DNA of 25,119 bases from positions 1 to 25,119 of the IMG/VR virus record IMGVR_UViG_3300009507_002720; one strand, given 5' to 3'. Position numbers and translations under genes: made by a program. Positions 2,938 to 24,844 of this stretch are shown piece by piece (position 1 is the first letter of the stretch; each line of letters opens with the position of its first letter). The notes beneath the pieces are model-generated. The model did not search any database. It was not told the origin of the DNA and saw only the letters and a list, made by a program, of their open reading frames with translations. The DNA comes from a virus.

Positions 2938-2940
2938 AAT

Positions 2941-3492
2941 TTAAAGTGTCCCCATATCACTGCTGTATAAACCTGAAGATGTTATAGTACCATAATCAAT
3001 ATCAAATGCAAGTTGCATGTACTGTGCATGACTTGTAATGTTTGGAACAATATCGCCAAATTCTAATTGAGTACTAAAAACTTCACTGCCTTGGCTTGAT
3101 GTGTCTGTGATAGTTAATGTATTACCGACTAAGTTAGTTGTAATACCTGCACCACCTATAATACGCAATGTTTCACCATCGTCTACATTCATACTACCGC
3201 CGTCAGTAACTACTAACATGCCTTGTAGATCTGTGCTAATTTGTATGTCGTTCCCTGCAACTGCGGCAACAGACATATTTGTACCTGCTGTGAGGTTTTT
3301 AAATGTTAATTGATCGCCAACTTTGCCGGCAAATACAGCAACGCCTGACCCTATACCCGCGGCTGTTGTTGCTTCTGGTTGACGTAAGTCTAGTTCATCA
3401 AAGTTTTCGTTTACTTTACGAAATGCTTCTCTTAGATCATCACCTGTGCCATCGTTAGCAATATTACCAATGTTAATGTTTTGTATTGTCAT
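2941..3492 (-). CDS. Small tagged fibre/structural protein, 183 aa
   Basis: The first 35 residues (MTIQNINIGNIANDGTGDDL, continuing with REAFRKVNENFDEL) match the N-terminal tag of the 322-aa and 2481-aa genes. The rest is beta-rich, Gly/Thr/Val-dominated sequence ending DMGTL, as in short phage fibre or baseplate-associated proteins. The start has a good ribosome binding site (AAGGA, about 9 nt upstream), and an AATAAATA late-type box lies 18 nt before the ATG, making this the first gene of a late unit with the 705-aa gene. The tag suggests it docks at the same virion site as the larger fibres or assembles with them. No catalytic motif is visible. A structural role is well supported by context; the exact role is unknown. 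Confidence 0.8.
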   Translation of the reverse strand: MTIQNINIGNIANDGTGDDLREAFRKVNENFDELDLRQPEATTAAGIGSGVAVFAGKVGDQLTFKNLTAGTNMSVAAVAGNDIQISTDLQGMLVVTDGGSMNVDDGETLRIIGGAGITTNLVGNTLTITDTSSQGSEVFSTQLEFGDIVPNITSHAQYMQLAFDIDYGTITSSGLYSSDMGTL

Positions 3493-10813: not shown

Positions 10814-11782
10814 TTATAGTGCCGCTATGCGTGTTTTGAAGTCTGCAAAGTCTGTACTATTTGCTACTTCGGTCTTCATTGTTGCCAATGTTAATGTTTC
10901 TGTTACTGGTGCTACCCAAGCATAGCCTGTTGCCGATCTTGCAAGGACGTCACTTAGGTTACCGCCTGGTAATAAATCACCAATATTTCCTGGAATTAAA
11001 TTACTCAAGTCAGTTAAGTTTGCTACATCACCTGGAATTAAATTAGTTGTATCTGTTAGGTCTGATAAATCAGTTGCAATTAAATTACCATTATCAGTTA
11101 ATCCACCTACATCAGTAATTGTCATATTTTTCCAACCACCGTTTATGTATGCTTCAACATGTCCTGTAGTTGTATTAGCAACTAAAAATCCTTCTGTAGT
11201 AAATGCATTACGAGCCGCTGTTGTGTAACTTGGCGGTATTACTTTTGAAAATGCATTTGCATTTAATGTACCATTAATATTTACAAATGAACTGTTGTGT
11301 CCCATTTCAACATTGCCACTGAGTGTATCATAACCAATGTGTATGTCTTGTCCTTGTGTGCGTAATGCAATATCAGTATTCGAATAAATTACAACTCCAT
11401 TTTGACTTACTTGGACATAATCTTCTGCCGCACTTTCTTGCAGTGTTACAATTCCTTGTGCTTCAAGTGTAATGTTTGCATTTATACCTGTGTTAGTAGT
11501 TGTAATTTCAATGTTATTATCAACAACGTCCCACGTTGTACTTGCAAGTGGTCCTACAACTTTGCTGTTATTGCCGTCTACAAGCAATGTACTGTCTGTT
11601 GCGTGTACACTACCAATTGTATCTACAATTAATGTGCCACCTCCTGTTTGTGCTGACTTAACTTGTTTTAAATCAAGATATAACTCATCAAAGTTATCAT
11701 TTACTTTATCAAATGCTGTGCGTAATGGATCTCCATCACCTTTGTTAGCACTTGTACCTAGGTTAACTATTTGTTTTGCCAT
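10814..11782 (-). CDS. Tagged tail fibre-like protein, 322 aa
   Basis: The N-terminus (MAKQIVNLGTSANKGDGDPL, then RTAFDKVNDNFDELY) is a divergent copy of the tag found in the 183-aa and 2481-aa genes. The middle is beta-rich, as in fibre shafts (TLEAQGIVTLQESAAEDYVQ, IDIALRTQ-like strands). Residues about 225-275 carry a degenerate Asn/Leu repeat seen as NLIATDLSDLTD, NLIPGDVANLTD and NLIPGNIGDL, visible in the DNA as repeated GGAATTAAATTA between 10990 and 11100. The C-terminus is helical (LATMKTEVANSTDFADFKTR). Its ATG shares one base with the stop of the 2481-aa gene (TAATG), so the two are translationally coupled. It is probably a fibre or fibre-tip component made in fixed ratio with that giant protein. 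Confidence 0.8.
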   Translation of the reverse strand: MAKQIVNLGTSANKGDGDPLRTAFDKVNDNFDELYLDLKQVKSAQTGGGTLIVDTIGSVHATDSTLLVDGNNSKVVGPLASTTWDVVDNNIEITTTNTGINANITLEAQGIVTLQESAAEDYVQVSQNGVVIYSNTDIALRTQGQDIHIGYDTLSGNVEMGHNSSFVNINGTLNANAFSKVIPPSYTTAARNAFTTEGFLVANTTTGHVEAYINGGWKNMTITDVGGLTDNGNLIATDLSDLTDTTNLIPGDVANLTDLSNLIPGNIGDLLPGGNLSDVLARSATGYAWVAPVTETLTLATMKTEVANSTDFADFKTRIAAL

Positions 11783-14700
11783 TACACTTTCCCTACTACT
11801 ATTTCAATTGTTCCTCTTTCAGTAGTGTCTTTGGCTTGCAACGCTTTACCAATTACTGTTCCTACTGTTGGATTGTTGTCAACTATTGCATACCCAGCAA
11901 TAGCACTTGATACTAATATATCTCCAGGTTGTGTTTTGCCAATAACTTTACAAGGAACTCTACCTGTTAATGCAACTGGAGTTACAAATTCACCTGTTAA
12001 ATCACTGTTCATTAAGTACGCTGGGTTTTCACTTACGACACCAATTACTTTAGTGTCACCTTTAGTTGCTGTTGTTGTAATTTCTTTTGCACCACCTAGT
12101 ACAATAACTGTACCTGGTTCATACTCTGTATCTGCTGAATAGTTCTCTGCCAAGTCAGCATAACGAGCCTGTGTAGCAGTTCCATCAAATACTGTAGCAT
12201 AAACTGTATTGTATTTTAGTGAAGCAGTACCAATGTTGTACACATTGTTTGTGTCAGGAACAACGCCATCTTTGCTAAATTTAAATGGTGCTTTAGTTGC
12301 CGCTGAATCTTTAACAAGTATACTAACTTCACCTGCGTTAGTTTTACCAGTTCCTGCACCTAGTGCAATACCTGTTGAACCTGTACCTTTTTCATTAGCC
12401 GCTTCAATAAACTGTGTATACATCCAATCCGAACTAATTCGTGCTTGGTTGTTGTATGTTGAGTTTTGCTGAAGTGTACTTTGTGTGTTAGCACCTGAGT
12501 CTCCAACATCAATACTTGCAGTAAATTCTGCTGTAATAGCACTTGTACCTGTCGCTTCAAATATTTGTGCGCCACCAGGTGTAAGCATTTCAATTGTTGT
12601 TGCCGCACCTGACTTAGGTTGTAAAATTACGTTAGTATCTGCCGCGCCTATGATCAAACCAGTTGTTCTAATCATACCATCGGACTTGGTCATTACAATA
12701 CTATCTGCACCACCGGTTGTAGTAATTGTTTGTGCAGTTGGACTTGCTGATGCACCACTAATGTTTGTTAATGCAGTGTTATTTGCAATTTCTTCTATGT
12801 CTGTTAAGTCAACACTACCAGTTTTAAGTGTCACAAATCCATCTGTTACTGTAAAGTCTCCGCTATCAAATACTGCAAGACCTAAGTCTTCTTGAATAAC
12901 TGCGCCACTAACACCACTACCACTTGTAACATCTGCAATAGTACTTGCCGCTTGCATGTTTAGTTTGCTTTGTGCAATCGCCGCCGCAGTATTTACATCT
13001 GCGTTCATTATACTGTTGTCTTTAATATCGTATGAAACTCTGTATTCGTCTGCTAGTCTTGAACCAGTAAATTCTAATTGACTGCTTCCATCAACTGTTG
13101 CATTAACAACTTCATGATGCGGACCACTTACAACTGTACCTGTCGGTTGTGTAATTAATCCTGTTGTACCTGTAATTGTAAATGCTGTAATTCCACCACT
13201 ACCATTAACTGCTGTAATTGTAAATGTTGCATCATTCGCAGGAGTTGCGCCGCCTAGTAAAGTTCCTGCAATAGTCCATGTTTCGTTTTGAACATAACCA
13301 GTACCTGCATTGGTTACATAAGCACTATAATCAGTTCCTCGACCAACGTTAATATTACCGTTTACACCTGCGCCTGCATATGTAACTGTGCCTAATGCAG
13401 TGTTTACATTTTTGGTAGATTCTTCAGTGTGTAAACTTGCTTGTGTAATTGTTCCTGATACTTCTTCATAAACTACTCTTGAAACATTTCCAAGAACTCC
13501 GTCTACTTCGTTATCAATAGCATATATTTCACCAATGTTTGCACCTTGAACCAATTTGCCGTTTGCTGTTAACGGACCATCTGCAATATTATCTGCATCG
13601 ACCATTATTACTCTGTAACCACTTCTGTGCATGATTTGATCTTTATAGAAATCTGCATCTGTTTGGACATTGCCTGCCGGCTTTTCTAGTGTTACATCAC
13701 GCATACCGTCAATGGTATTATACTGTTCTACAACATTATCAACGTATGCTTTGTTTACTGCATCTGAATCTTGTGATGGTGCTTGGACATTAATAATTCT
13801 ATTACTACCCATGTTCAAGTTACCTGTCATTGCCGCATGACCATCTCTTGGAACTGTACCGCCACCAATAACATTGTTCACTGGTAGACCATTATGATCC
13901 CAACCTAAACGTCTGTTTACATATCCTCGTACTGCGTTTTGTGTTGGAACAATATCTGATCCATTTTGTGTCATGCCATCGTCAGTACTAAATTCACTAA
14001 CAACAACACCACGTTTAAAACCAATACCGTCCAAGTTACTTAACGCAATACTACCTGCGAATGTAACTGTACCAGTGCCTTGGTCAACTGTAAAGAATCT
14101 ACCTACACGGAAGAAACCGTCTTGGTCTGTACTTACGTAGAACACTCTACCTTTTGAACGCTCTTGTACTTCGTATGATTGATTAGGTTGTCTTGGTGCA
14201 CCTAGTAGTACACTTGGATAGTTACTAGTGTTGTATGATCCTGTACCAATGTCTAAGAAGTCATGTCCTGTTGCTCTTGTAAGTGAAATATTAATTGTAA
14301 TATCACCTGGAGAACCTGCTGGCAAACCAATTCTAATTGTATTTGCTTGTCCGCCATTTAATACTACTGGAAGATGAAGACCTGTTGCATTGTTCGTTAA
14401 GTTATGATCAAGTTTACCGCTTGGGTTAGTTGCGTCAGTTATGTCTTCAATTTTAATAACTGCATAACCAACAAAGTCTAAGTAATCAACAACTTTGTGT
14501 GCTTTACCTTCCCATGTAAAGATCATGTCACCTCTACGTAATCTTGCAATGTCTGAAACTTCTGTAAGTTCTGCAATCGCAATACCTACGTCACCTTTGG
14601 TAGCACCTAATGTAGTTCCACCAAAGCCTACTGCTGGTGTATCGCTTGTATGGTTAGTATCTACAATAACTCTAACATAATCGTAAGTAGCATCAAAGCC

Positions 14701-17700
14701 CATTAAGATTTCATCACTTGGTAAATTTTCACCTGTTGTTTCTGTAGTTGTAAATTCTGTTGTTCTGTATGTAAATCCTGGACGTTCGTCGAATTCAAAT
14801 GCTGTACTTGGACGAATTGTAAGTCTACCTGTGTCTAACACATTGTCAACAATAACAACTTGGTTATGTCTATATGAAACAAAATGCCCATGCTTTAGTC
14901 CTTCAAGTAAACCGTCATTACTAAATCCTGCTGATGCAGTACTAAAACTTAATTTGTAAACTTGACCATCATAAATTGGAGTATCAGTTGTAACGTTTAC
15001 AGTACCACTGGACGTAACTGTTAAAATTTTACCGTCGCCGTCGACTGTTGCAACTGTAATTGTACAATCATGTGTACTAGTTGTACCGTCTAGTTTTGTT
15101 CCATCTACAACAAATGTATCACCTACTTGATAATTTATACCTGGTGCAAGAATATATGATACATATGTGCCTCCGCCTTGACGTGTTTTTTGTACATCAA
15201 ATTTAGCGTTAGTACCTGATGCTGTTGCTGTGTATGCAACATCATTATGTCCATCTACTCTAAAGTTTGCTACTTTTGCAATACTAGAAACTTCATATCT
15301 TCCGTAGTTTCCGTTTGTGTGTAAAATATTAATTTCACCTCTGTTTTGAGGTAATGACTCAAAGTCAAATACATGAACACTTAGTTGTTCTTGTGTAAGT
15401 AATATTCCTGCCGCACTCACATCTGATGGTACTCCGATTGCTGTACTATCATTTAATGTTACTGCTCCGGTGGTATTAAATGTACCAGTTACACTTTTTA
15501 AATATAAAACTTTACCTGCTGTTTCAAAAACAACTTCACCTGTAGCACCAGTGCCTGCTTGAGTAACTGTATGTCCTACGCCACTTGGACCTGAACCACC
15601 TTCTGCTACTGCACCGATTACATCTGAAAACGTTAGAATAGTAGCGGCTTCTGTTGTTCTAGCAACCTTAGCCATGTTATCACGTAATGTAACTGCGTCT
15701 GGAACTTCGTTTGGATCACTACCATTAGCAACTAATCCATATTCACCATAAGCGTTAGAACCGTTAAGTGATCTAATTTCGCCACCGTTGTTTGCGTAAT
15801 ATGCTGTCCAACAATAGTAAGTAAACTGTGATACCATTTCTGATAATGCACCGTTTGTAACTACTAGTCCGTAACCTAAGTCATTAACCTGTGTAAAGTC
15901 ATTACCAAGCATACTTCTGTTACCAGCAGTTTGAACAGTAATTTCAATTGGGTTAATTGAACTTGCATTATCTAATACAACTGAGCCGTATAATGTTCCT
16001 GTAAATCCTGCTTTTGAATTTGAACTTGGATCAAGAATAAGTGTTGCTGTACCTAGTGTTGGATCCCAGTTTCTAACTGCGTTAACCTGAAAACGTCTAC
16101 CTTCCATATAGAATGGTGACGGTACTTGTGGTTTTTTAACAAACAACCCTTGACCGGATTGTGAACGTACATCAATTTTAAATGCTGTTTGTTTATTAAT
16201 AACTTCCATAGGAACGTTACCAACAAATGCATCAACAAACATACCACCTCTAAATGCCTGTCTGTTTAATGAGCGTGAAAAACTTGAACCTGTTTGACAA
16301 TATGGTGATTTAGTTTTAACTTGACCATCTGGGTCAAGCACCATCATAAATCCACCGTGTCCTGTAACAGAACAGTTTCTTACAATAGTTCCATCGTTAC
16401 ACAAGAACACATCAAGTTCATTGTTATTTTTTGGTGGGTTAATATTTGCGTTAAATGCAAATGCTACACAATCAACAAGTGCATCTAAATTTGTGTATGC
16501 GTTTGCTTCTACAGTTAAACTTGGATCAATAACTTGTTCTTCAATTACTTGTGTTGCTGTAACTGCATTGTTTTGTAAAATAGTATTTGCTAAGGTACTA
16601 ATATATTGTATTGCCGCTTCAGTTTCTGTTTCTTGACCTGCAACTGCACCGGCGTAGTATGCACCTTGATTTGTTAATGAACTTTCTCGACCGCCATATA
16701 CTAAGTCAGCCGCTAGTCCTTTTACAATTAATCTTGTGTCTCTACGACATTTAGTTTGATTGTAAGTTAAACTTGGATATGTTGTGTTTACAAAACTAAT
16801 AACTTCTTCAACAATAAATTCTAAGTTTTTCGTAAGTATTTTAGAAGCAATTGGAAACTTACCTGGATTAGTAATACCAAAGTTACTTACATTTGTATCT
16901 TTAGTTGGGTCTGTTAAATAGTGTCTACCAAACCAACCAATTGGATTACCTGTTAATGGATTAATATAGCGTGATCCATTTGTAGGTAAGTTAGTATCTT
17001 TAACACCTGTTACACTAGTTGCCGCATCACCTGTTAGTCCATCAAATTCTTCATCACGATAGAAGTATACATTGGCCCAAGGAGACTGTGAACTACCTTT
17101 TTTAGGTTTAATAATTACACGTCTAAACTCGTCACCTTTTAATGAAACGTTTGCAGGCAATCTAATCGGAAAGTGTTCTTCGTAAGTACCTGACTCAATT
17201 CTAATACTAATTTGACTAAATTTAATTGTATTAGCATATTCAATTTCTTCACCTACTATAAACTCTATTGGTTCTAAAAGTTGTAGTTCTAAAATATCTG
17301 TATTAGTAGGATTAGATGGATTTAAATTTTCACTTTGGTATTCAACAACTCTACCTAATGCGCCTGACTCTTTACCACGTATAACTTTACCTGGTAAAAT
17401 ATCTGTGTTGTCTGGATCACCTTGGTCAACGTAGTCATTGTTAGTACCATTAGTAATTTGAAGGCTGTATGTACTACCATCTACAATAGCCGGAGCATCA
17501 AATACATTACCGTCATTAATAATACTTGTAATAATATCAAATTTTGCATCAACTGAATTACGTGCAGTCGCATCTGTTTGATATCCTGAATTTATATATT
17601 GTGTGTAAACTGACTGATATGTTGTACCTGGACTAAGATTTTGTAGTACTAAATTTACAAGTCCTTTTAAGAAAGTAATACCTGCAAGTGTTTCAGTTTT

Positions 17701-19227
17701 CTGTGTAGTAATAGCCGCTGTTGCACTTGCGTTGGCGTAGTATCTAATACCAGCACGTCTTGACAAAAAGTTAGCATTGTTACCAGTTAGTGTATCAAGC
17801 GTAACAGCATCGATCATCAATCCTACATCACGCGAACAAATATCTTTATCATATGTAAAGTTTGGATATGTTGCATTAAGATATCCTATAACTTCTGCTC
17901 TAATCCAATTTCTGTTTTCTTTAAGTAATTCACGTACATTATTACGACCTGACGGAATACTTAGTACATCAGCACTAGTAATTACAGTAGGTACTGTAAA
18001 TGACGAGTGTGTAATTGTTTGTGCATAGTTACCTAGTTCAAATTTAGAAGCAATTTGTAATTCTTCTGCTCTACGTGCCGCGGCACCAATCGACGCAAGT
18101 GCATATGAATTACTTCTACCTGCTTTGCCCGGTGCTGTCTTAAGATATCTATCATCGCCTTTTGTACTAACGTATAAGTTACTTGCACTTAGACCTTCTT
18201 GTTGATCAACATATAATTTTGTAGCAACTTGTAGATCCTCAGGATCGGTATTGGCTGTTCCTGCTAGTGAGCCTGGATGGTCGTGTGCAAATAATGCACC
18301 GGTCATTGTGTCGCCTGCTCTACGCACAACACTCTTACGTGGTAATGCTTCGTTTGCTAGATAATATCCTGCTAAGGCTGTGTCTAATCCTTGGTCAACA
18401 AGTTTATGAACACCTGCAACTACTGTTCCTGTAATAGCAATACTATTTGTATTAGCAATAGCATCTGCTGAACTTGTATGTAAACTAATTGTATTATCAT
18501 CTGCAATACGAGTATAATAAATTGTGTCTTTAACAAGACCTGTTAGTGCTGATCCTGTTGACGTATATTTGTAACTTTGTCCGTTACTTGCTCTATCAAG
18601 ACCGTGATCCTGTACTTGTAAATCTTGTGTTGATACAATTCCTGTAATGTCTAATGTATATTCTGAAGCGTCTGCAGGCTCATCACGTAGTCCTCCCATT
18701 TTACCTGGGTTAGTTGCTTTTGGATATCTTTGATCGTTGTATTCTTTATCTGGTACTAGGTCGTGTATAGTATAATTGCCGCCGTACTTTGATGTAAATG
18801 CCGCCGCATCTGCTGTTGTAATACTTACATTACCAATTGAATATTCTGCGGCATTCATGTGACCGCCTAGTTGTGGACTAGTGTCTCCCGAAACATTTGT
18901 TCTACCTGCTTGAATTAATAATTTGCCTGCTTGTGTTACGTTGAACACAATAGTATCGTCTGCAGGATCTCCAGTAATAGCACCATTTGAAACTAGTTCT
19001 AATGCTTCAACTCCGTCCTCAGCAGTGTTAACTGCAAGTACTCTACTTGCTAGTCCTGTATAATCATCTGGTGTATCACTTAAACTTCTAAAGTTAATTT
19101 GTCCGCCGATGCCAAATACTGCGTATAGTTCTTGAAAGTTTTCGTTGGATTTACGAAACGATTCACGTAAACTATCACCTGTACCGTCGTTACCTTCTAC
19201 ACCAATATCAATAATTTCTCTTGCCAT
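11782..19227 (-). CDS. Giant tail fibre / virion structural protein, 2481 aa
   Basis: The N-terminal tag reads MAREIIDIGVEGNDGTGDSL, then RESFRKSNENFQELY. Phage fibre motifs include GDTMTGALF, QVATKLYVDQQ (about 325-350) and MTGNLNMGSNRIINVQ with DAVNKAYVD further on. Two related segments near residues 431 and 797 contain 'N..FI..E...Y...TYP...Y....C.RD', an internal duplication. About 665-700 (RIESGTYEEHFPIRLPANVS) resembles the start of a right-handed beta-helix. Around 945 is a CSVTGHGG...PYCQTGSSFSRSLN stretch. The last 125 residues (YADLAENYSADTEYEPGTVI onward) resemble the C-terminal Peptidase_G2-type domain of phage fibres, which is cleaved off after trimerisation in some phages. A GGAG ribosome site precedes the ATG. 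HesB/IscA-like lies 11 nt upstream; the 322-aa gene overlaps its stop. It is probably a trimeric long fibre. Confidence 0.85.
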   Translation of the reverse strand: MAREIIDIGVEGNDGTGDSLRESFRKSNENFQELYAVFGIGGQINFRSLSDTPDDYTGLASRVLAVNTAEDGVEALELVSNGAITGDPADDTIVFNVTQAGKLLIQAGRTNVSGDTSPQLGGHMNAAEYSIGNVSITTADAAAFTSKYGGNYTIHDLVPDKEYNDQRYPKATNPGKMGGLRDEPADASEYTLDITGIVSTQDLQVQDHGLDRASNGQSYKYTSTGSALTGLVKDTIYYTRIADDNTISLHTSSADAIANTNSIAITGTVVAGVHKLVDQGLDTALAGYYLANEALPRKSVVRRAGDTMTGALFAHDHPGSLAGTANTDPEDLQVATKLYVDQQEGLSASNLYVSTKGDDRYLKTAPGKAGRSNSYALASIGAAARRAEELQIASKFELGNYAQTITHSSFTVPTVITSADVLSIPSGRNNVRELLKENRNWIRAEVIGYLNATYPNFTYDKDICSRDVGLMIDAVTLDTLTGNNANFLSRRAGIRYYANASATAAITTQKTETLAGITFLKGLVNLVLQNLSPGTTYQSVYTQYINSGYQTDATARNSVDAKFDIITSIINDGNVFDAPAIVDGSTYSLQITNGTNNDYVDQGDPDNTDILPGKVIRGKESGALGRVVEYQSENLNPSNPTNTDILELQLLEPIEFIVGEEIEYANTIKFSQISIRIESGTYEEHFPIRLPANVSLKGDEFRRVIIKPKKGSSQSPWANVYFYRDEEFDGLTGDAATSVTGVKDTNLPTNGSRYINPLTGNPIGWFGRHYLTDPTKDTNVSNFGITNPGKFPIASKILTKNLEFIVEEVISFVNTTYPSLTYNQTKCRRDTRLIVKGLAADLVYGGRESSLTNQGAYYAGAVAGQETETEAAIQYISTLANTILQNNAVTATQVIEEQVIDPSLTVEANAYTNLDALVDCVAFAFNANINPPKNNNELDVFLCNDGTIVRNCSVTGHGGFMMVLDPDGQVKTKSPYCQTGSSFSRSLNRQAFRGGMFVDAFVGNVPMEVINKQTAFKIDVRSQSGQGLFVKKPQVPSPFYMEGRRFQVNAVRNWDPTLGTATLILDPSSNSKAGFTGTLYGSVVLDNASSINPIEITVQTAGNRSMLGNDFTQVNDLGYGLVVTNGALSEMVSQFTYYCWTAYYANNGGEIRSLNGSNAYGEYGLVANGSDPNEVPDAVTLRDNMAKVARTTEAATILTFSDVIGAVAEGGSGPSGVGHTVTQAGTGATGEVVFETAGKVLYLKSVTGTFNTTGAVTLNDSTAIGVPSDVSAAGILLTQEQLSVHVFDFESLPQNRGEINILHTNGNYGRYEVSSIAKVANFRVDGHNDVAYTATASGTNAKFDVQKTRQGGGTYVSYILAPGINYQVGDTFVVDGTKLDGTTSTHDCTITVATVDGDGKILTVTSSGTVNVTTDTPIYDGQVYKLSFSTASAGFSNDGLLEGLKHGHFVSYRHNQVVIVDNVLDTGRLTIRPSTAFEFDERPGFTYRTTEFTTTETTGENLPSDEILMGFDATYDYVRVIVDTNHTSDTPAVGFGGTTLGATKGDVGIAIAELTEVSDIARLRRGDMIFTWEGKAHKVVDYLDFVGYAVIKIEDITDATNPSGKLDHNLTNNATGLHLPVVLNGGQANTIRIGLPAGSPGDITINISLTRATGHDFLDIGTGSYNTSNYPSVLLGAPRQPNQSYEVQERSKGRVFYVSTDQDGFFRVGRFFTVDQGTGTVTFAGSIALSNLDGIGFKRGVVVSEFSTDDGMTQNGSDIVPTQNAVRGYVNRRLGWDHNGLPVNNVIGGGTVPRDGHAAMTGNLNMGSNRIINVQAPSQDSDAVNKAYVDNVVEQYNTIDGMRDVTLEKPAGNVQTDADFYKDQIMHRSGYRVIMVDADNIADGPLTANGKLVQGANIGEIYAIDNEVDGVLGNVSRVVYEEVSGTITQASLHTEESTKNVNTALGTVTYAGAGVNGNINVGRGTDYSAYVTNAGTGYVQNETWTIAGTLLGGATPANDATFTITAVNGSGGITAFTITGTTGLITQPTGTVVSGPHHEVVNATVDGSSQLEFTGSRLADEYRVSYDIKDNSIMNADVNTAAAIAQSKLNMQAASTIADVTSGSGVSGAVIQEDLGLAVFDSGDFTVTDGFVTLKTGSVDLTDIEEIANNTALTNISGASASPTAQTITTTGGADSIVMTKSDGMIRTTGLIIGAADTNVILQPKSGAATTIEMLTPGGAQIFEATGTSAITAEFTASIDVGDSGANTQSTLQQNSTYNNQARISSDWMYTQFIEAANEKGTGSTGIALGAGTGKTNAGEVSILVKDSAATKAPFKFSKDGVVPDTNNVYNIGTASLKYNTVYATVFDGTATQARYADLAENYSADTEYEPGTVIVLGGAKEITTTATKGDTKVIGVVSENPAYLMNSDLTGEFVTPVALTGRVPCKVIGKTQPGDILVSSAIAGYAIVDNNPTVGTVIGKALQAKDTTERGTIEIVVGKV

Positions 19228-19238
19228 ATTTTACTCCA

Positions 19239-19601
19239 TTAAGCAGGTATTGCTAATTTGTCCATATCAAAATTTACACTCACACCGCAACCACAACTGC
19301 TCTGTGCATTAGGATTAATGATATCAAACATCGACCCCATAATATCTTTTTTATAATCTATTTTAGTTCCAAACAAAAACATCATACTAGCCGCACCTAC
19401 AATAAATGTACATTTTTCTGTAGCATAAATTATCTGATCATCATCAAGTAGTTTGTCTGCTGTATCGTATGTTCCCCATTCATATTCAAAGCCTGCACAG
19501 CCTCCACCTTTCATGTTTAGCGTAACAGCATAAACATTATTATCTTTACAAATTGTAGCAATTTGTGCTTTTGCGGCGTCTGTAAGTGTACAAATATCCA
19601 T
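19239..19601 (-). CDS. HesB/IscA-type Fe-S carrier protein
   Basis: This A-type carrier family member is 120 aa from ATG 19601. The ATG was chosen over a codon 30 nt earlier because GGGAG lies just upstream. The three cysteines that hold an Fe-S cluster or iron in IscA/ErpA/HesB are present: Cys35 in KGGGCAGFEYEWG and Cys103/Cys105 in SSCGCGVSVNF. The usual length of about 110 aa is matched. The family receives clusters from an IscU-like scaffold and passes them to apo-proteins in the cytoplasm. HesB-like genes occur in marine T4-like phages, and here the gene is the first of the late structural operon, directly before a giant fibre gene. Such placement suggests late expression, either supporting host metabolism during assembly or loading iron into a virion protein; neither is shown by sequence. 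Confidence 0.9.
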   Translation of the reverse strand: MDICTLTDAAKAQIATICKDNNVYAVTLNMKGGGCAGFEYEWGTYDTADKLLDDDQIIYATEKCTFIVGAASMMFLFGTKIDYKKDIMGSMFDIINPNAQSSCGCGVSVNFDMDKLAIPA

Positions 19602-19621
19602 TGGAACTCCCTTATTATAGT

Positions 19622-19629
19622 TATTTATC
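19622..19629 (-). promoter_or_regulatory. T4-like late promoter box (GATAAATA)
   Basis: The minus strand reads GATAAATA, one mismatch from TATAAATA, 20 nt before the HesB/IscA-like start and with GGGAG in between. It would drive the largest late unit (HesB/IscA through the 324-aa adhesin). Confidence 0.5.
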
Positions 19630-19665
19630 ATAGTGTTTTGTAATCCGAATGTAATAAATATAGTT

Positions 19666-19956
19666 ATGTTCTTAGAAGAAATAAAAAAGAAAAGCCGGCA
19701 CGTAAGAAAGTCTAAAAACGGTATTGAACACCAGTATACTAAGACTAAAACGTTTGCTCGACTGCGTTGTGATAGTTGTAATACAGAATTTGTGCGTCCA
19801 CGTGGAAGTATGGATCCTAAACGCCTAAATAATAACTATTTTCATGTATGTGGTGATTGTGATGCAAAGAGATTTGCACAGAAAGCAGGGGTAGACCAGA
19901 AGCAGAAATGGAACAATCTCTCTGCTTCTAGTAATATTCCTATTGGTAAGTTGTAA
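19666..19956 (+). CDS. Zinc-ribbon protein, the only plus-strand gene
   Basis: This 96-aa protein is basic. It carries Cys35-x2-Cys38 (LRCDSCNTEF) and Cys62-x2-Cys65 (HVCGDCDAKRF) with a 23-residue spacer, a four-cysteine zinc-binding layout seen in small DNA- or RNA-binding and regulatory phage proteins. The N-terminus (EEIKKKSRHVRKSKNG) and tail are rich in Lys and Arg. ATG 19666 is preferred over an upstream GTG at 19633 because the intervening residues look non-coding, but there is no clear Shine-Dalgarno. An AATAAATA at 19653-19660 is too close to serve as a normal late promoter for this start. The gene faces the leftward HesB operon divergently and meets the 54-aa gene tail to tail with no spacer. 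Function is unknown; nucleic acid binding is inferred. Confidence 0.75.
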   Translation: MFLEEIKKKSRHVRKSKNGIEHQYTKTKTFARLRCDSCNTEFVRPRGSMDPKRLNNNYFHVCGDCDAKRFAQKAGVDQKQKWNNLSASSNIPIGKL

Positions 19957-20135: not shown

Positions 20136-20390
20136 TCAACGTAGTGCTTGTTTAGCCTTTAAAGCGGCTCTTTTCTTTTCAGTTTCGATTGCTTGTCTAA
20201 CTTTTCGTCCCCAAGGTAGTTTTATTCTGTCTACAACTTCTTTACCTTTTTTACTGATGTATTCAACACCTATAAATTGATCTTTAAAGTCACTTTGTAC
20301 AGATTTTACTGCTCTTGTTAGACTCAACTGTTCTGTTTCTTTTTCATCACCCTTTTCATTCCAAAAAAGGAACTTTCTCATTTTTGGCAT
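20136..20390 (-). CDS. Unknown basic protein, 84 aa
   Basis: The start is set by GGAGG five bases before ATG 20390. It lies inside the last 35 nt of uvsE in a different frame. The product begins MPKMRKFLFWNEKGDEKE and ends in a lysine/arginine/alanine-rich helix (AIETEKKRAALKAKQALR). There is no membrane segment or recognisable motif. A late-type AATAAATA box 17 nt upstream suggests it starts a late unit with the 54-aa membrane protein. Confidence 0.75.
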   Translation of the reverse strand: MPKMRKFLFWNEKGDEKETEQLSLTRAVKSVQSDFKDQFIGVEYISKKGKEVVDRIKLPWGRKVRQAIETEKKRAALKAKQALR

Positions 20391-21432
20391 AAGCCTCCGT
20401 TGTTATATATTTATTGTATTGATTTAGTAGTTTTTTGCTTGCTAAATTCTTCATCTTACTCTCGCACATAATATCTGCATATTCTAAGAATGAAAGTGCC
20501 CATGCATTTACTTTCTCGTTAGGATAATAATCACTATGCGCTCTTAATTTTGCTTTCTTATGTCCTGCTTCTAGTAGTGCTGGCATGTCAGGCATTGTGT
20601 CGTGTGTAAAGCCTTCGGGTAGTGCTTCGTCTCTACTGTATGAATAATGTATTGCAGGTCTTACACCACGCCACGAATCTATTACGCGAGCAAATCTATC
20701 GTCGGTGGGACGTATATATTCGCCTTCACGGCACCAGTGATGGTGTATGTCCAGTACCAATGCGCAGGTGTCGACAAGTTCGAGACTGTGTTCGAGTCCC
20801 CACTTGTTCTCGTCGTTCTCGATCGTAATCGTGTTTCTCGCTTCTGGAGATAGTCTGTTGTCAACTGCGTGTTTAATACCGGCTGGACCTTGTCTGCCTG
20901 ATATATGGACATTGCATTTGAAGTCTTGGAAGGTCTTGCCGTATCCCATCCAGCGTATGACATCGGTGTGATATTCAAATTCTTCTATGCTCCTCTCTAC
21001 AATTTCGGGGTTGTCGCTCGCAAGTACAGTAAATTGGCCTGGGTGCATCGATAGTCGGACATCGTAGGCTCTTGCCGCTTCGCCAACGATTGCGAAGTAC
21101 TTTTCACAGTACGCAACCACATCAGGCTTGCGCCAAAAATAAGACCACTCATGCTGGGTATAAACAGGAAGTACATCACTACCAAGTCTGACCATACGTA
21201 ATTCATTTGGTAATCCTCCAACATATGCAATCAAGTGATGGTACGATTGAATGTTATGTACCATAATGTCCCACAAGCGTTCTTCTGCTACTTCACGTGT
21301 TTGCCTATTGAGCCATTGTACTGTTGTGCTACGAGTATTTAGTGGACGTTGAATTTCTTCTAGCAGTTTCTTCTTCTGCGTTTGATCTGGGTGCATGTAC
21401 TTACATGCGAAGCCTATGCGTTTAGTTACCAT
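20356..21432 (-). CDS. uvsE: UV damage endonuclease, UvdE/UvsE family
   Basis: This 358-aa TIM-barrel endonuclease nicks DNA 5' to cyclobutane dimers and 6-4 photoproducts, starting an excision repair route independent of UvrABC. Family landmarks are in order: RIGFACKYMHPD at the N-terminus, LSMHPGQFTVLAS (strand with a metal-binding His), ITIENDENKWG (Glu ligand), LVLDIHHHWCREGEY, HYSYSRDEALPEGFTHD and KAKLRAHSDYYPN. It is slightly longer than typical bacterial members (about 300 aa) through its C-terminus. The start codon overlaps the end of the 49-aa gene by 7 nt. A sigma70 promoter in that gene points at uvsE. The 3' end overlaps the 84-aa gene. The middle (about 20680-21060) looks more GC-rich than its neighbours. 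In sunlit surface water a phage repair enzyme for UV lesions is easy to rationalise. Confidence 0.93.
   Translation of the reverse strand: MVTKRIGFACKYMHPDQTQKKKLLEEIQRPLNTRSTTVQWLNRQTREVAEERLWDIMVHNIQSYHHLIAYVGGLPNELRMVRLGSDVLPVYTQHEWSYFWRKPDVVAYCEKYFAIVGEAARAYDVRLSMHPGQFTVLASDNPEIVERSIEEFEYHTDVIRWMGYGKTFQDFKCNVHISGRQGPAGIKHAVDNRLSPEARNTITIENDENKWGLEHSLELVDTCALVLDIHHHWCREGEYIRPTDDRFARVIDSWRGVRPAIHYSYSRDEALPEGFTHDTMPDMPALLEAGHKKAKLRAHSDYYPNEKVNAWALSFLEYADIMCESKMKNLASKKLLNQYNKYITTEAYAKNEKVPFLE
20408..20415 (-). promoter_or_regulatory. T4-like late promoter box (AATAAATA)
   Basis: The minus strand reads AATAAATA within the 3' end of uvsE, 17 nt before the start of the 84-aa gene, with GGAGG between them. 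Spacing matches the two other late-type boxes. Confidence 0.45.
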
Positions 21433-21575
21433 TTTCTATATTGTCCATCTAGTTCGTGTGTGCCTGAATTGTGTATTGCACAGGTAAAACTCTGCCATAT
21501 GCCGTACTGTTGTCGTAATTGTTTGTACCATTGTATAGCAAGTATAACACGTTTCTTAAAGTTTGTCAAGATCAT
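21426..21575 (-). CDS. Small gene, 49 aa, coupled between oxygenase 2 and uvsE
   Basis: This reading frame was found by hand. ATG 21575-21573 overlaps the TGA of the second oxygenase gene as ATGA, and its TAA (21428-21426) lies just inside uvsE, so both ends are coupled. The product begins MILTNFKKRVILAIQWYKQL and ends in ELDGQYRKW. It is basic and rich in Trp, Tyr and Gln, with a hydrophobic start (VILAIQW) that could be amphipathic. There is no Shine-Dalgarno, so expression would depend on coupling. A sigma70 promoter is embedded in its first third. No family is recognised. The tight fit in a gap otherwise lacking a gene argues for it; the small size argues for caution. Confidence 0.6.
   Translation of the reverse strand: MILTNFKKRVILAIQWYKQLRQQYGIWQSFTCAIHNSGTHELDGQYRKW
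21541..21569 (-). promoter_or_regulatory. Sigma70 promoter for uvsE (TTGACA-17-TATACT)
   Basis: On the minus strand TTGACA (21569-21564) and TATACT (21546-21541) are separated by exactly 17 bp, five of six at -10 and six of six at -35 by the E. coli consensus. Transcription would start near 21534, about 100 nt before uvsE. It lies within the 49-aa gene, so uvsE could be expressed from both the upstream promoter and this one. Confidence 0.6.
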
Positions 21576-22162
21576 TTTTTATATGATGTATTAAAACTAA
21601 TAGTAACACGATTTTCGGTAGTATTTTCATTTGTGAAATGTTCAATCCAACTAGGAAATAACACTAAACTACCTTGTTCACAAGGTGCTTCCATCATTGC
21701 CGCATTATACATTGTTTCTTGTGCCGCATACTCGTACATTTTGTAAACTTGCAAAGGATTTTTAAAAACTAACGGAGCACTTCCTGGATCAGCAATAGGA
21801 TAAAATGCACCACTTAAAACACTTACTTCATGTCTATGAGGTCGAACAGCACCGTTTATTCCAACTCTATTCATCCAACTGTTTGTAATTACTAATTCTG
21901 GCAATCCATATGTTAGACAATATTCTTGCACACAATCTTCTAGTGATTCTTTAATAGGTTCTAGTCCTAGTTTATCTAACCATCTATTAGAAGTTGCTTC
22001 GTTGTATGTACTTTCGCTATCTTTCATAATAGCATGCCATTCAGTTTTTGTTTTGTTTACAACGTCTAACATTCTACTATAATGAGAATGACTGTTTAAA
22101 TCAAATCTCATAACAGTTGTTGGAAATATTTTTTCTATACTTTTTGTAAAAACTTGTTTCAT
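21572..22162 (-). CDS. Putative 2OG-Fe(II) oxygenase 2 (TIGR02466-like)
   Basis: This 196-aa enzyme belongs to the 2-oxoglutarate/Fe(II)-dependent dioxygenase type that hydroxylates proteins, nucleic acids or small molecules. Residues 107-120 read RPHRHEVSVLSGAF, giving His109 and His111 next to the family's 'LSG' strand. LFPSWIEHFTNENTTENRV supplies His175 and Arg185 (2OG salt bridge), followed by TISFNTSY. The start ATG overlaps the stop of oxygenase 1 (ATGA) and the stop overlaps the 49-aa gene. It is a clear paralogue of the gene upstream, with about the same spacing of motifs. The substrate is unknown; neighbours point to modification of a nucleoside, glycan or virion protein. Confidence 0.85.
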   Translation of the reverse strand: MKQVFTKSIEKIFPTTVMRFDLNSHSHYSRMLDVVNKTKTEWHAIMKDSESTYNEATSNRWLDKLGLEPIKESLEDCVQEYCLTYGLPELVITNSWMNRVGINGAVRPHRHEVSVLSGAFYPIADPGSAPLVFKNPLQVYKMYEYAAQETMYNAAMMEAPCEQGSLVLFPSWIEHFTNENTTENRVTISFNTSYKK

Positions 22163-22779
22163 GTTGTCTCTGTATTATTTTTTGTATAAACTGGATAGTG
22201 ACTATTAAAACTAATGGTAGTTCTGTAATCACAATCAATAGCAGGAACAAAGTGTTCCATCCAACTAGGATATATTAATAAGTCTCCGCTCTCAACTTCT
22301 TGTAAATGTGCATAGTCTTGACCAGGTGTTTGTTGACGCTCGGCCATTCTATGTGGAATAGTAGGATTAGCAAATGCAAGTCCGATACTACCTTCAGGTG
22401 CATTAACAAATAACGTACCACTTATTGCACTACCTTCGTGCCTGTGACGTTGTACTTTACTTCCTTTGTGCATAATAGTATACCAACTGTCGTCAATTAT
22501 AGGAGCAATTTGATTATTATATCGTGCATACGTAGATAGACATGTTAACATTAAAGAACTTAACTCCGGTAGATGATCTAATAGATAACTTTTAGTACGC
22601 CAATCTTCGTTATAACTTGTTTGAGCCTTACCTTCTACAATTACGCTTTCAGATGTTTCAGCCTCCATTAATTGTGCTAATAATCCATCCCAGTTTTCAT
22701 ACTCATCAAATAATGGAAACTTCATTATGTGAGTAGGAAATAACGGAATTAATTTTGCACTATTTACTATACCGGTCAT
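22159..22779 (-). CDS. Putative 2OG-Fe(II) oxygenase 1 (TIGR02466-like)
   Basis: This 206-aa dioxygenase is read from ATG 22779, which overlaps the glycosyltransferase stop as ATGA and has AAGGAG eight bases upstream; a TTG six bases earlier is less likely. Residues 110-121 read QRHRHEGSAISG with His112 and His114. LLIYPSWMEHFVPAIDCDYR gives His176 and Arg186, followed by TTISFNSHYP. The N-terminal IPLFPTHIMKFPL is the usual family start. It is adjacent and paralogous to oxygenase 2. Phage members of this family are frequent in marine T4-like genomes, but their substrates are unknown. Confidence 0.87.
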   Translation of the reverse strand: MTGIVNSAKLIPLFPTHIMKFPLFDEYENWDGLLAQLMEAETSESVIVEGKAQTSYNEDWRTKSYLLDHLPELSSLMLTCLSTYARYNNQIAPIIDDSWYTIMHKGSKVQRHRHEGSAISGTLFVNAPEGSIGLAFANPTIPHRMAERQQTPGQDYAHLQEVESGDLLIYPSWMEHFVPAIDCDYRTTISFNSHYPVYTKNNTETT

Positions 22780-23726
22780 ACCCAATTCTCCTTACACCAT
22801 GGATCTACACAATTATGCGGATTCGGTTCTCCATGAAATACTGCAATACTTGTGTTTGGATTTATTTCAGGAACACCAGGAGTTGCAAAGTTTCTTACAC
22901 CGTCGATCCGTGTCATAGTGGGTTTGTTACGCATTTCCCACTTATAACTTTGTAGCCATTCGTCTGGCCAATATACATAATTATCTTTTACTTGATCATA
23001 CAACCAATCTTGATCTCCATGAAACTTTCTAGAATTTACAACAGGATTTTGCATAAAGTTTTTATATACATATGGATGTTGACCAATTTCTAATCTAAAG
23101 CAACTACTGTTAAACTTATTCCAACTAGGATTATTTCTTCGATTAAAATCTCTAATCACACAAAACTTGCCTGGCTGATATGTAAAAAGTTTATCAATGT
23201 TTCTAAAAATAATTACATCCAAGTCAATGAATAAAACTGTACCTTGTAATACTAGTTCCGGATTAAAAAACATAGGCTTATACCACCAACCTGATAATCC
23301 TCTATGTTGCGGTAAAGGTTCAATTCGAATATCTTTATGTAAATCATTTGGATTTTCTGTGAAGCAAACAAATTCAAATGGCAATGTCATATTGCGTTTA
23401 CACATTCGATATAATGTGTTTACATATTCTCCATCATATTTTTGTCCATGTTTTAAACATGCAATATATCGTTTTGCTTCTGGTTCAAAACCTTTACTCC
23501 ATCTATCTGGATCATCTAAGTCTGTTTTATCTGTAGGAGGAGGAATTACTTTGGGCTTAGGTTTAACTAATGGCGGCTTTAAAGTAGGTGTAGGTTCCTT
23601 TGGGGGTTCACGTACAACAGTCGATTTAGGAATAGGCTGATGTACTTTTTTGCCCGTTTCCTTTTCTAGTTGCTTACGTGCCTTACGTTGTTCTTTTGTT
23701 TCTCCAGGATAATATTTTTTAACCAC
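22776..23726 (-). CDS. GT-A type glycosyltransferase-like protein with proline-rich linker
   Basis: From GTG 23726 this is 316 aa. The GTG shares its G with the TAG of the QueD-like gene, matching the overlap style of its neighbours; a longer reading from ATG 23816 would overlap that gene by 90 nt and is less likely. Residues about 10-35 are basic and coiled, and 38-64 are a Pro/Lys linker (EPPKEPTPTLKPPLVKPKPK). The catalytic domain begins YIACLKHGQKYDGEYVNTLY. A DxD motif lies at Asp168/Asp170 (VLFIDLDVII), typical of GT-A enzymes that bind a nucleotide sugar through a metal. Later motifs are KFHGDQDWLYDQ and VFHGEPNPHN. It resembles GT8-like enzymes. Its target may be a phage DNA base, a virion protein or a host glycan. 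Confidence 0.75.
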   Translation of the reverse strand: MVKKYYPGETKEQRKARKQLEKETGKKVHQPIPKSTVVREPPKEPTPTLKPPLVKPKPKVIPPPTDKTDLDDPDRWSKGFEPEAKRYIACLKHGQKYDGEYVNTLYRMCKRNMTLPFEFVCFTENPNDLHKDIRIEPLPQHRGLSGWWYKPMFFNPELVLQGTVLFIDLDVIIFRNIDKLFTYQPGKFCVIRDFNRRNNPSWNKFNSSCFRLEIGQHPYVYKNFMQNPVVNSRKFHGDQDWLYDQVKDNYVYWPDEWLQSYKWEMRNKPTMTRIDGVRNFATPGVPEINPNTSIAVFHGEPNPHNCVDPWCKENWV

Positions 23727-24199
23727 TACTTTGTCATCCACCCTGATTCGTTGTCTCTTGTATATATTGCTGAGTTGGCGCCGTGTTCTGCACATTCTGC
23801 TTTTACGCAATAGCAACGATTGTCGCTCATTTCACGCACAAGTTTGTCTGCAAAGTTAAATGCGTGTTCGGCAAACTTCTCTGCACCAACACCATCCATT
23901 ACAACAATCTCTGCTAGATCTAATTCTTGTAGTTCCATAAACTTATCTAAGTGCGGATCGTTTTTATCAATTGCTGTCTTATGATCAAAGTGATCTTCTA
24001 ACCATTTCTTTAAAGGCTTTAGTCCGCCAAAGTCTACTGCCCAGTTTTTATTATCTAGTTCGTCACATCCAAATGTGAATGTAAATGCTAGACTATATCC
24101 ATGTAGCAGATGGCAGTGTGAATGATCTGCGTTAGGTTGTCTAAAGACTGCTGATAGTCCAATGTTGTGTCCGTAATGTTTTGTGCTGTAATAAGCCAT
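23726..24199 (-). CDS. queD: QueD-like 6-carboxy/6-pyruvoyl-tetrahydropterin synthase
   Basis: This 157-aa T-fold protein would convert dihydroneopterin triphosphate to 6-carboxy-tetrahydropterin, the first committed step toward preQ0 and queuosine-type 7-deazaguanines. Cys29 (HSHCHLLHGYSLAF), the Asp72-His73 pair (DHFDHKTAID), VDFGGLKPLK and Glu135 near the C-terminal ANSAIY match family positions. The usual zinc site is altered: HGH is HGY (Tyr35), and the early FxxAH His is Phe19. Several nearby histidines (26, 28, 30, 33) could compensate, and this variant is one I associate with phage members. AGGAG lies six bases before ATG 24199. The gene heads a coupled chain behind a strong sigma70 promoter. 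No queC, queE or queF is present within the window. Confidence 0.85.
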   Translation of the reverse strand: MAYYSTKHYGHNIGLSAVFRQPNADHSHCHLLHGYSLAFTFTFGCDELDNKNWAVDFGGLKPLKKWLEDHFDHKTAIDKNDPHLDKFMELQELDLAEIVVMDGVGAEKFAEHAFNFADKLVREMSDNRCYCVKAECAEHGANSAIYTRDNESGWMTK

Positions 24200-24271: not shown

Positions 24272-24300
24272 ATTATACTATAAGTTATCTATGTTGTCAA
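24272..24300 (-). promoter_or_regulatory. Consensus sigma70 promoter of the queD-like operon
   Basis: On the minus strand TTGACA (24300-24295) and TATAAT (24277-24272) are separated by 17 bp, a perfect match to the consensus of both hexamers. The -35 box lies in the last codons of the preceding gene and the -10 box starts right after its stop. It would read the coupled chain from queD-like to uvsE, probably early in infection, using host RNA polymerase. Confidence 0.75.
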
Positions 24301-24844
24301 GTGAAACATTTGGTAATTTCCACTGATCGGGCAACTGCCAATCTTTTTGATATATGGTAAAACGCTTGTCTGGATATATCTCCATTAATACACCTATTTG
24401 ATGTATCCAATATCTTGGATCTATAAAATGATGATCGCTTCTATTGTAATTATTTGTATCTTTGTATACGTTATTCATATACTTGTCTTTGCTATGTAAA
24501 TCAAATCCTATCATATTAATATTATTTCCAAGATTACATGCTATTAATACTGCATAAGGTCCGCTACCCCATTGAAAGGGCTCGTCCGGCCGTTCGTTGC
24601 CTTTGTATGGTAATTGGGGAACTTCCATTACTCCATATGCTTTGAATTCGTCTATCCAATTTGATCTAGTGTATATATTTGATTTGTATTTTGCATTAAT
24701 GGCCTCGCGTACCATCTTGCGATCTACACATACTAGATGTTCTACAAAGTAGTCACGTAGTATTGCATTGCAACCAATTTTTGTATCCTTGATTGTATCT
24801 ATATCAATACCTTTGCGACTTTCGCCGTTGCCAATTACTAACAT
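24278..24844 (-). CDS. Rossmann-like protein resembling MptE/DUF115 or glycosyltransferase family
   Basis: The 188-aa product starts MLVIGNGESRKGIDIDTIKD, a phosphate-binding type loop seen in the DUF115/MptE-like (6-hydroxymethylpterin diphosphokinase) and related sugar-transfer families, followed by IGCNAILRDYFVEHLVCVDR. Later, WGSGPYAVLIACNLGNNINM and IGFDLHS match the second half of such folds ('SG..A...A...G...I.LIGFD'). MptE-like activity would make pterin pyrophosphates, and the next gene is a pterin synthase, but the family is also linked to glycan synthesis. No clear Shine-Dalgarno precedes the ATG. It starts 8 nt after the preceding gene. The reaction is not established. Confidence 0.6.
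   Translation of the reverse strand: MLVIGNGESRKGIDIDTIKDTKIGCNAILRDYFVEHLVCVDRKMVREAINAKYKSNIYTRSNWIDEFKAYGVMEVPQLPYKGNERPDEPFQWGSGPYAVLIACNLGNNINMIGFDLHSKDKYMNNVYKDTNNYNRSDHHFIDPRYWIHQIGVLMEIYPDKRFTIYQKDWQLPDQWKLPNVSLDNIDNL

Follow-up and report, generated by a model that had tools for sequence, protein, structure and literature searches.

Viruses commonly carry folE, queD, and queE as auxiliary genes (PMC9301287), and the closest described systems are phage pathways of 7-deazaguanine modification. FolE, QueD, and QueE of phage 9g complement Escherichia coli mutants, and 7-carboxy-7-deazaguanine (CDG) has been proposed as the base of Mycobacterium phage Bipper, whose pathway lacks only QueC, according to the portion of PMC6884629 considered here. 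Further 7-deazaguanine bases in phages are credited to Cui et al. 2023 in the part of PMC12783734 that cites them, and queuosine-pathway genes on freshwater Far-T4 contigs were already known (PMC4360716). The current study concerns a queD-like gene of IMG/VR record IMGVR_UViG_3300009507_002720, a viral fragment of 25,119 nt (the window), where queD belongs to a run of genes that are all located on the minus strand. The window QueD is probably a displaced member of a phage 7-deazaguanine DNA modification pathway without canonical QueC, as judged from the gene content of its relatives.

23726-24199, minus strand: QueD-like protein, ATG start, 157 aa (PF01242, phrog_2389)

A single QueD lineage, at least 81% identical to the window QueD in all sampled QueD loci, occupies two alternative positions by sequence. 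Among 80 QueD relatives, which were sampled separately from a scan of 80 viral loci with relatives of the adjacent glycosyltransferase gene in order to avoid selection by the latter, queD was located in a tail-side cassette in 58 cases, in a FolE/QueE context in 15, and elsewhere in 6; one locus was too short, and both positions were never occupied together. FolE, QueE, and a protein designated A1 are not encoded in the 25-kb record, in accordance with the first-pass annotation, which had noted that the other queuosine genes are absent from the window and had suggested a search for queC, queE, folE, and a DNA transglycosylase elsewhere in the genome. Seven cassette-type records include a second, distant locus as a whole; FolE and QueE are present in every one of them, and the same seven records contain A1, a DpdA/TGT-like candidate for the transglycosylase. 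FolE was detected in 6 of the 21 long cassette-type records, including the four longest ones, QueE in exactly these six, and A1 in these and in G006; G059 is the seventh complete case. A1 is present without QueE in G006 and G062, the coordinates of which place the rest of the locus beyond the contig end. The distance downstream of the cassette amounts to ~38 to 63 kb for A1 and ~43 to 72 kb for FolE/QueE.

The FolE loci of the six records share a QueE-like radical SAM protein near FolE, a GT-B-like protein, and the unannotated A1 of ~515 aa, and in five of them a phosphoribosyltransferase (PRT) is found near FolE. Eighty A1 loci exhibit a steady order, i.e., A1 - g179 - g146 - GT-B - g117 - g142 - [2OG] - PRT - HIT - g293 - FolE - QueE - exonuclease, with 2OG denoting a 2-oxoglutarate (2OG) oxygenase gene. 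The GT-B assignment is based on weak Pfam matches of the member in Acidovorax phage ACP17 (E=2.5e-4, below the cut-off) and on annotations in two phages. The gene g146 (phrog_17812; L103:14110-14550, L407:7833-8216) shows a weak profile similarity to QueD (probability 45 versus ≤1 for controls), carries an HRH motif, travels with FolE/QueE/GT-B, and possibly encodes another T-fold enzyme.

A1 occurs in at least 578 IMG/VR contigs and is a probable member of the transglycosylase superfamily. Across 93 aligned members, D101-S-G-G-F-Q106, D146, Q195-G196, G228-G229, and D293-C294 are almost invariant, and these sites correspond to the substrate-binding and nucleophile motif positions of TGT (DSGGFQ, LDIP, VLQG, GG, FDC). 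The A1 profile matched the annotated DpdA of Motura with a probability of 80.5 (E=1.3e-5) and E. coli-type TGT with a probability of 23 (E=9e-4) and collinear motifs, compared with ≤0.4 for unrelated control proteins. An hhalign comparison of A1 with a mixed DpdA set reached a probability of 13.6; since the DpdA types cannot be coaligned, comparisons with single types were used instead. A search with the Pfam TGT family PF01702 gave no hit in 21 records, which is not taken as absence because A1 is too divergent for Pfam, and a scan of viral contigs with Motura DpdA returned only the query itself.

The same set of genes has been found in unrelated cultured phages. Paride (complete, 287 kb) encodes A1 - GT-B - g146 - PRT - QueE - exonuclease, arranged as in the marine records, with FolE and a window-type QueD located elsewhere and g179 also present; its A1 lacks the Q of VLQG, whereas DSGGFQ and the D of FDC are preserved. 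Two QueD-like genes were observed in Paride (L396:447-1010 and 2784-3257), of which the copy next to FolE has the canonical zinc His and the other is of the window type. In ACP17, QueD - FolE - g179 - DpdA-like - GT-B - g146 - QueE are contiguous within 5.4 kb, and in Synechococcus phage BUCT-ZZ01 a DpdA-like protein, g146, and GT-B lie in one cluster with QueE, PRT, QueD, and FolE; the equivalent place of A1 is taken in both phages by another DpdA-like family (TGT match with a probability of 92.9). Sinorhizobium phage Phosso harbors QueD, A1, and GT-B, and Iggy a window-type QueD together with QueC, QueE, FolE, and DpdA. Across lineages, it is thus the predicted FolE/QueE/DpdA-like/GT-B set, and not the cassette neighbors, that recurs with window-type QueD.

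Canonical QueC (PF06508) was detected in none of the 21 cassette-type records and in none of ZZ01, Paride, and Pelagibacter phage Mosig, whereas the same search was positive in all four QueC phages that served as a control. Complete absence of QueC is not claimed, since 6 of 40 records encode a PP-loop ATPase that is divergent but carries QueC-like ends; its presence does not track the pathway. Such ATPases are located, e.g., at L203:1030-1731, G003:64719-65363, and G004:5775-6383, the G003 and G004 copies among radical-SAM genes. Without QueC, CDG is to be expected as the base unless the QueC of the host acts, and by analogy the product is probably CDG or a derivative, which is possibly glycosylated.

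We propose that FolE would convert GTP to dihydroneopterin triphosphate, from which QueD would form carboxytetrahydropterin and QueE CDG. The divergent TGT/DpdA-like transglycosylase would then exchange guanine in the phage DNA for CDG or its derivative, and the GT-B-like glycosyltransferase and the PRT of the distant locus may decorate or activate the base. We infer the catalytic activities, DNA rather than tRNA as the target, the product, and the presence of the distant genes in the window phage itself. Our more far-reaching idea, put forward tentatively and with clearly less confidence than the pathway assignment, is that the DNA of these abundant marine phages contains a QueC-independent 7-deazaguanine that is glycosylated (e.g., a sugar on CDG) and that would be made by FolE-QueD-QueE, inserted by an unrecognized DpdA subfamily, and decorated by GT-B. 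To our knowledge, no glycosylated 7-deazaguanine in DNA is known.

The gene set might instead feed the queuosine of the host tRNA, with FolE/QueD/QueE raising the level of CDG, host QueC and the subsequent enzymes completing the synthesis, and the translation of late genes being aided. The host could indeed supply the missing QueC, and such a role has been proposed for the Que genes of several phages, Far-T4 among them (PMC4360716; for a DpdA-less group, in the portion of PMC6884629 considered). However, a transglycosylase-like protein and GT-B are encoded in the same locus and recur in unrelated phages, while most bacterial hosts possess their own TGT, and we regard this function as rather unlikely.

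The catalytic residues of E. coli QueD are Cys27, the Asp70-His71 pair, and Glu110, and its zinc triad is composed of H16/H31/H33. The window QueD is recognized by its PTPS domain PF01242 (50.7 bits versus a cut-off of 22.4) and by the QueD-like family phrog_2389 (E=6e-40), and the profile comparison (hhalign) of window-type with canonical QueD gave a probability of 99.6. The catalytic columns C29, D72-H73, and E138 are conserved in essentially all 50 aligned window-type sequences; the window QueD, a QueD-like T-fold enzyme of a phage type, retains the pterin-anchoring Glu and the catalytic Cys. Only H31 of the zinc triad is retained, since E. coli H16 corresponds to F19 (Tyr in one sequence) and H33 to Y35 in all aligned members, and H28 and H139 are newly conserved in this family in comparison with E. 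coli QueD. The QueD of phage 9g has the canonical zinc His, and its activity in E. coli is therefore no proof for the window type.

Several observations weigh against the placement of the window QueD in a DNA modification pathway. With 35.2 bits it falls below the QueD equivalog cut-off of TIGR03367 (89.25), and with two canonical zinc ligands replaced, the window type could catalyze another reaction; the two QueD types of Paride could likewise leave room for a paralogue. The link to the pathway is drawn through relatives, as the fragment itself is devoid of FolE, QueE, and A1, and G018, which has the cassette at one end of its 69.5 kb and is the sole record that is long enough to expect the second locus yet lacks it, contains neither QueE nor A1 in the ~68 kb downstream. 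A1 is not recognized by Pfam and PHROGs, showed no similarity to the DpdA proteins of 9g, Iggy, and nt-1 (DpdA2), and has a weak AlphaFold2 (AF2) model (pLDDT 52) with insignificant Foldseek matches, several of them to TIM barrels. Finally, the divergent QueC-like ATPases keep preQ0 possible as a product.

The bit score, the altered zinc triad, and the situation in Paride would all fit a paralogue that acts on the same or another pterin at a different step, with canonical QueD provided by the phage, as in Paride, or by the host. Yet Iggy, HD01, Motura, ACP17, and G001/G003 pair FolE and QueE with the window type, which in Iggy, Motura, HD01, and ACP17 lies inside pathway clusters. Canonical QueD was not seen in these phages, with almost the whole record read in G001 and G003 only, where the window type is the sole QueD. 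Together with the conserved catalytic Cys, His, and Glu columns, these pairings leave the paralogue a small chance of being correct. An orphan or inactive QueD was considered as well and is disfavored, because the genomes concerned repeatedly encode FolE and QueE, and because this type of QueD is found within full pathways. The assignment of the window QueD to a split, QueC-less DNA modification pathway is accordingly retained here as the probable one, and its cassette neighbors have to be considered separately.

The first-pass annotation had described a run of overlapping genes from queD to uvsE, which is real, with five consecutive overlapping junctions and confirmed family assignments; its interval from 21426 to 24199 leaves out uvsE except for the first 7 nt. 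The other genes of the run and its surroundings are the following.

24278-24844, minus strand: g188, kept gene upstream of queD (phrog_30607)
22776-23726, minus strand: GT-A-like glycosyltransferase (GT), GTG start, 316 aa (phrog_1962, E=3.5e-25)
22159-22779, minus strand: 2OG-Fe(II) oxygenase A, ATG start, 206 aa (PF13759, E=9.8e-18)
21572-22162, minus strand: 2OG-Fe(II) oxygenase B, ATG start, 196 aa (PF13759, E=1.6e-16)
21426-21575, minus strand: ORF49, open reading frame (ORF) of 49 aa, no family match in Pfam and PHROGs, homologues in 15 loci
20356-21432, minus strand: UvsE/UvdE-type UV damage endonuclease (uvsE), ATG start, 358 aa (PF03851, E=3e-35)
20136-20390, minus strand: 84-aa ORF overlapping the 3' end of uvsE, present in 5 loci
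19239-19631, minus strand: A-type Fe-S carrier of the IscA/ErpA family (TIGR00049, 79.9 bits, over the cut-off), 77 loci
11782-19227, minus strand: tail-side protein of 2481 aa that bounds the cassette, fiber candidate judged by its length and location, with homologues in 76 loci

The overlaps comprise 1 nt between queD and GT (TAGTG), 4 nt between GT and oxygenase A (ATGA), between the two oxygenases, and between oxygenase B and ORF49, and 7 nt between ORF49 and uvsE; oxygenase A is preceded by its own Shine-Dalgarno-like AAGGAGA. The conclusion that this coupling reflects a fixed stoichiometry and a joint task is a weak one, because overlaps are ordinary in such phages. They are present at 33 of 57 neighboring pairs in the annotated stretch of Mosig, with a run of nine, and most window relatives manage without them (queD/GT junction, 13 of 58; GT/uvsE, 1 of 22, with the gene start approximated by the start codon nearest to the upstream stop).

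The prevailing order of the GT-sampled loci is g188 - [oxygenase] - queD - GT - [oxygenase] - uvsE - Fe-S carrier - long tail-side protein, although the loci differ in how many oxygenases they have and where these lie; g188, which precedes queD, is thus part of the conserved neighborhood. In the reading of the first-pass annotation, the cassette would be a functional unit in which QueD, GT, and the oxygenases, perhaps joined by UvsE, cooperate to synthesize a new modified base or glycan and to attach it. The g188-queD-GT-uvsE order is kept in most relatives, which is in line with such a unit, as are the overlaps in the window and the presence of GT near queD in 54 of the 58 cassette-type loci (g188, 52; uvsE, 45). 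However, an oxygenase was found in just 19 of these loci, and the GT of the window is absent from all 15 FolE-type QueD loci. Mosig has a GT homologue, but neither QueE nor an A1-type protein was found in it, and Paride conversely has the pathway without GT, g188, uvsE, or an oxygenase. The cassette does not move as one unit either, as the oxygenases are present in some relatives and absent from others, some loci have no GT or no uvsE, and queD changes its place. A common task of QueD, GT, the two oxygenases, and UvsE is hence not supported, and we judge a joint function to be unlikely. GT, g188, the 2OG oxygenases, and UvsE appear to be modular accessory genes of the tail-fiber-side region, probably with tasks of their own, e.g., UV repair or an alteration of virion or host glycans. 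The 7-deazaguanine route suspected from QueD has found support in the relatives, but its partners are distant genes, through which, rather than through the neighbors, a new modified base is still possible. That QueD is merely unrelated cargo of a hypervariable tail-side region would agree with the modular nature of the region and with the frequency of queD as a viral auxiliary gene (PMC9301287); it is nevertheless highly improbable, given that QueD keeps its place beside g188/GT/uvsE in 58 loci, while the genomes retain FolE and QueE at another site.

With respect to the individual neighbors, an invariant DLD is located at residues 168-170 in the alignment of the GT family, and the Pfam match to Glyco_transf_8 is only E=0.048. 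Its N-terminal extension of ~85 aa (23471-23726, minus strand) is rich in Pro and Lys and absent from many relatives, which are ~232 aa long. The PF13759 domain (2OG-FeII_Oxy_5) of both oxygenases scored 60.9 and 64.8 bits (cut-off, 27) and the UvdE domain PF03851 122.3 bits (cut-off, 24), while the uvsE product missed the TIGR00629 equivalog cut-off (100 versus 124.45). The GC content of uvsE is 43%, compared with 32 to 40% in the neighboring genes, and its nearest phage relatives, which are 46 to 48% identical, are found in jumbo phages, the closest cultured ones being Dickeya/Erwinia jumbo phages and phage NCTB. The AF2 model of g188 (pLDDT 83) had no significant match in the PDB; a glycosyltransferase-like fold may be suspected from its GNGxS motif. 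The Fe-S carrier gene is located a few nucleotides (mostly 3 to 14) before the long tail-side protein gene in ~72 relatives, a very stable pairing whose reason is not obvious. An ORF of ~95 to 107 aa (19633-19956 in the window, plus strand) adjoins the Fe-S carrier gene on the strand opposite to the cassette, and an ORF of similar size and the same orientation is present beside this gene in most relatives. A DNA-level search for the cassette in phages yielded only two short matches.

The apparently orphan queD of marine phage contigs would thus be explained by a pathway that is present but split, and a reading based on the neighborhood is therefore misleading. What appears to be new, on the basis of sequence comparisons, is a 7-deazaguanine pathway of phages that is split, does without canonical QueC, and involves an unrecognized DpdA-like family, very widespread and unannotated, and a proposed GT-B-like partner. 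As these genes recur in cultured isolates, namely in Paride and, with the other DpdA type, in ACP17 and ZZ01, a possible new DNA hypermodification becomes testable by mass spectrometry.

Phage 7-deazaguanine modification, as outlined in the portion of Hutinet et al. 2019 (PMC6884629) used here, resembles the window lineage in the combination of FolE, QueD, QueE, and a transglycosylase-superfamily protein (a probable one in the window lineage) in one genome. In comparison with the 9g-type system depicted there, the window lineage lacks canonical QueC, has a DpdA-like protein of another subfamily and a GT-B companion, and carries queD tens of kilobases away beside tail genes; the canonical set of zinc His is found in the QueD of 9g, but not in the window type. 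Bipper has a comparable QueC-less gene set implying CDG, but belongs to another phage group with another DpdA, and a GT-B partner is not described for it in that portion of the paper (PMC6884629). With the QueD family (PF01242/TIGR03367), the window type has the PTPS domain and the catalytic residues in common, but its zinc triad is altered and its score lies below the equivalog cut-off. The Far-T4 clade 1 freshwater contigs (PMC4360716) and ZZ01 share the queuosine-pathway genes, GTP cyclohydrolase, and PRT with the window lineage; their queD is located inside the FolE/QueE cluster, whereas that of the window lineage resides in the tail-side cassette.

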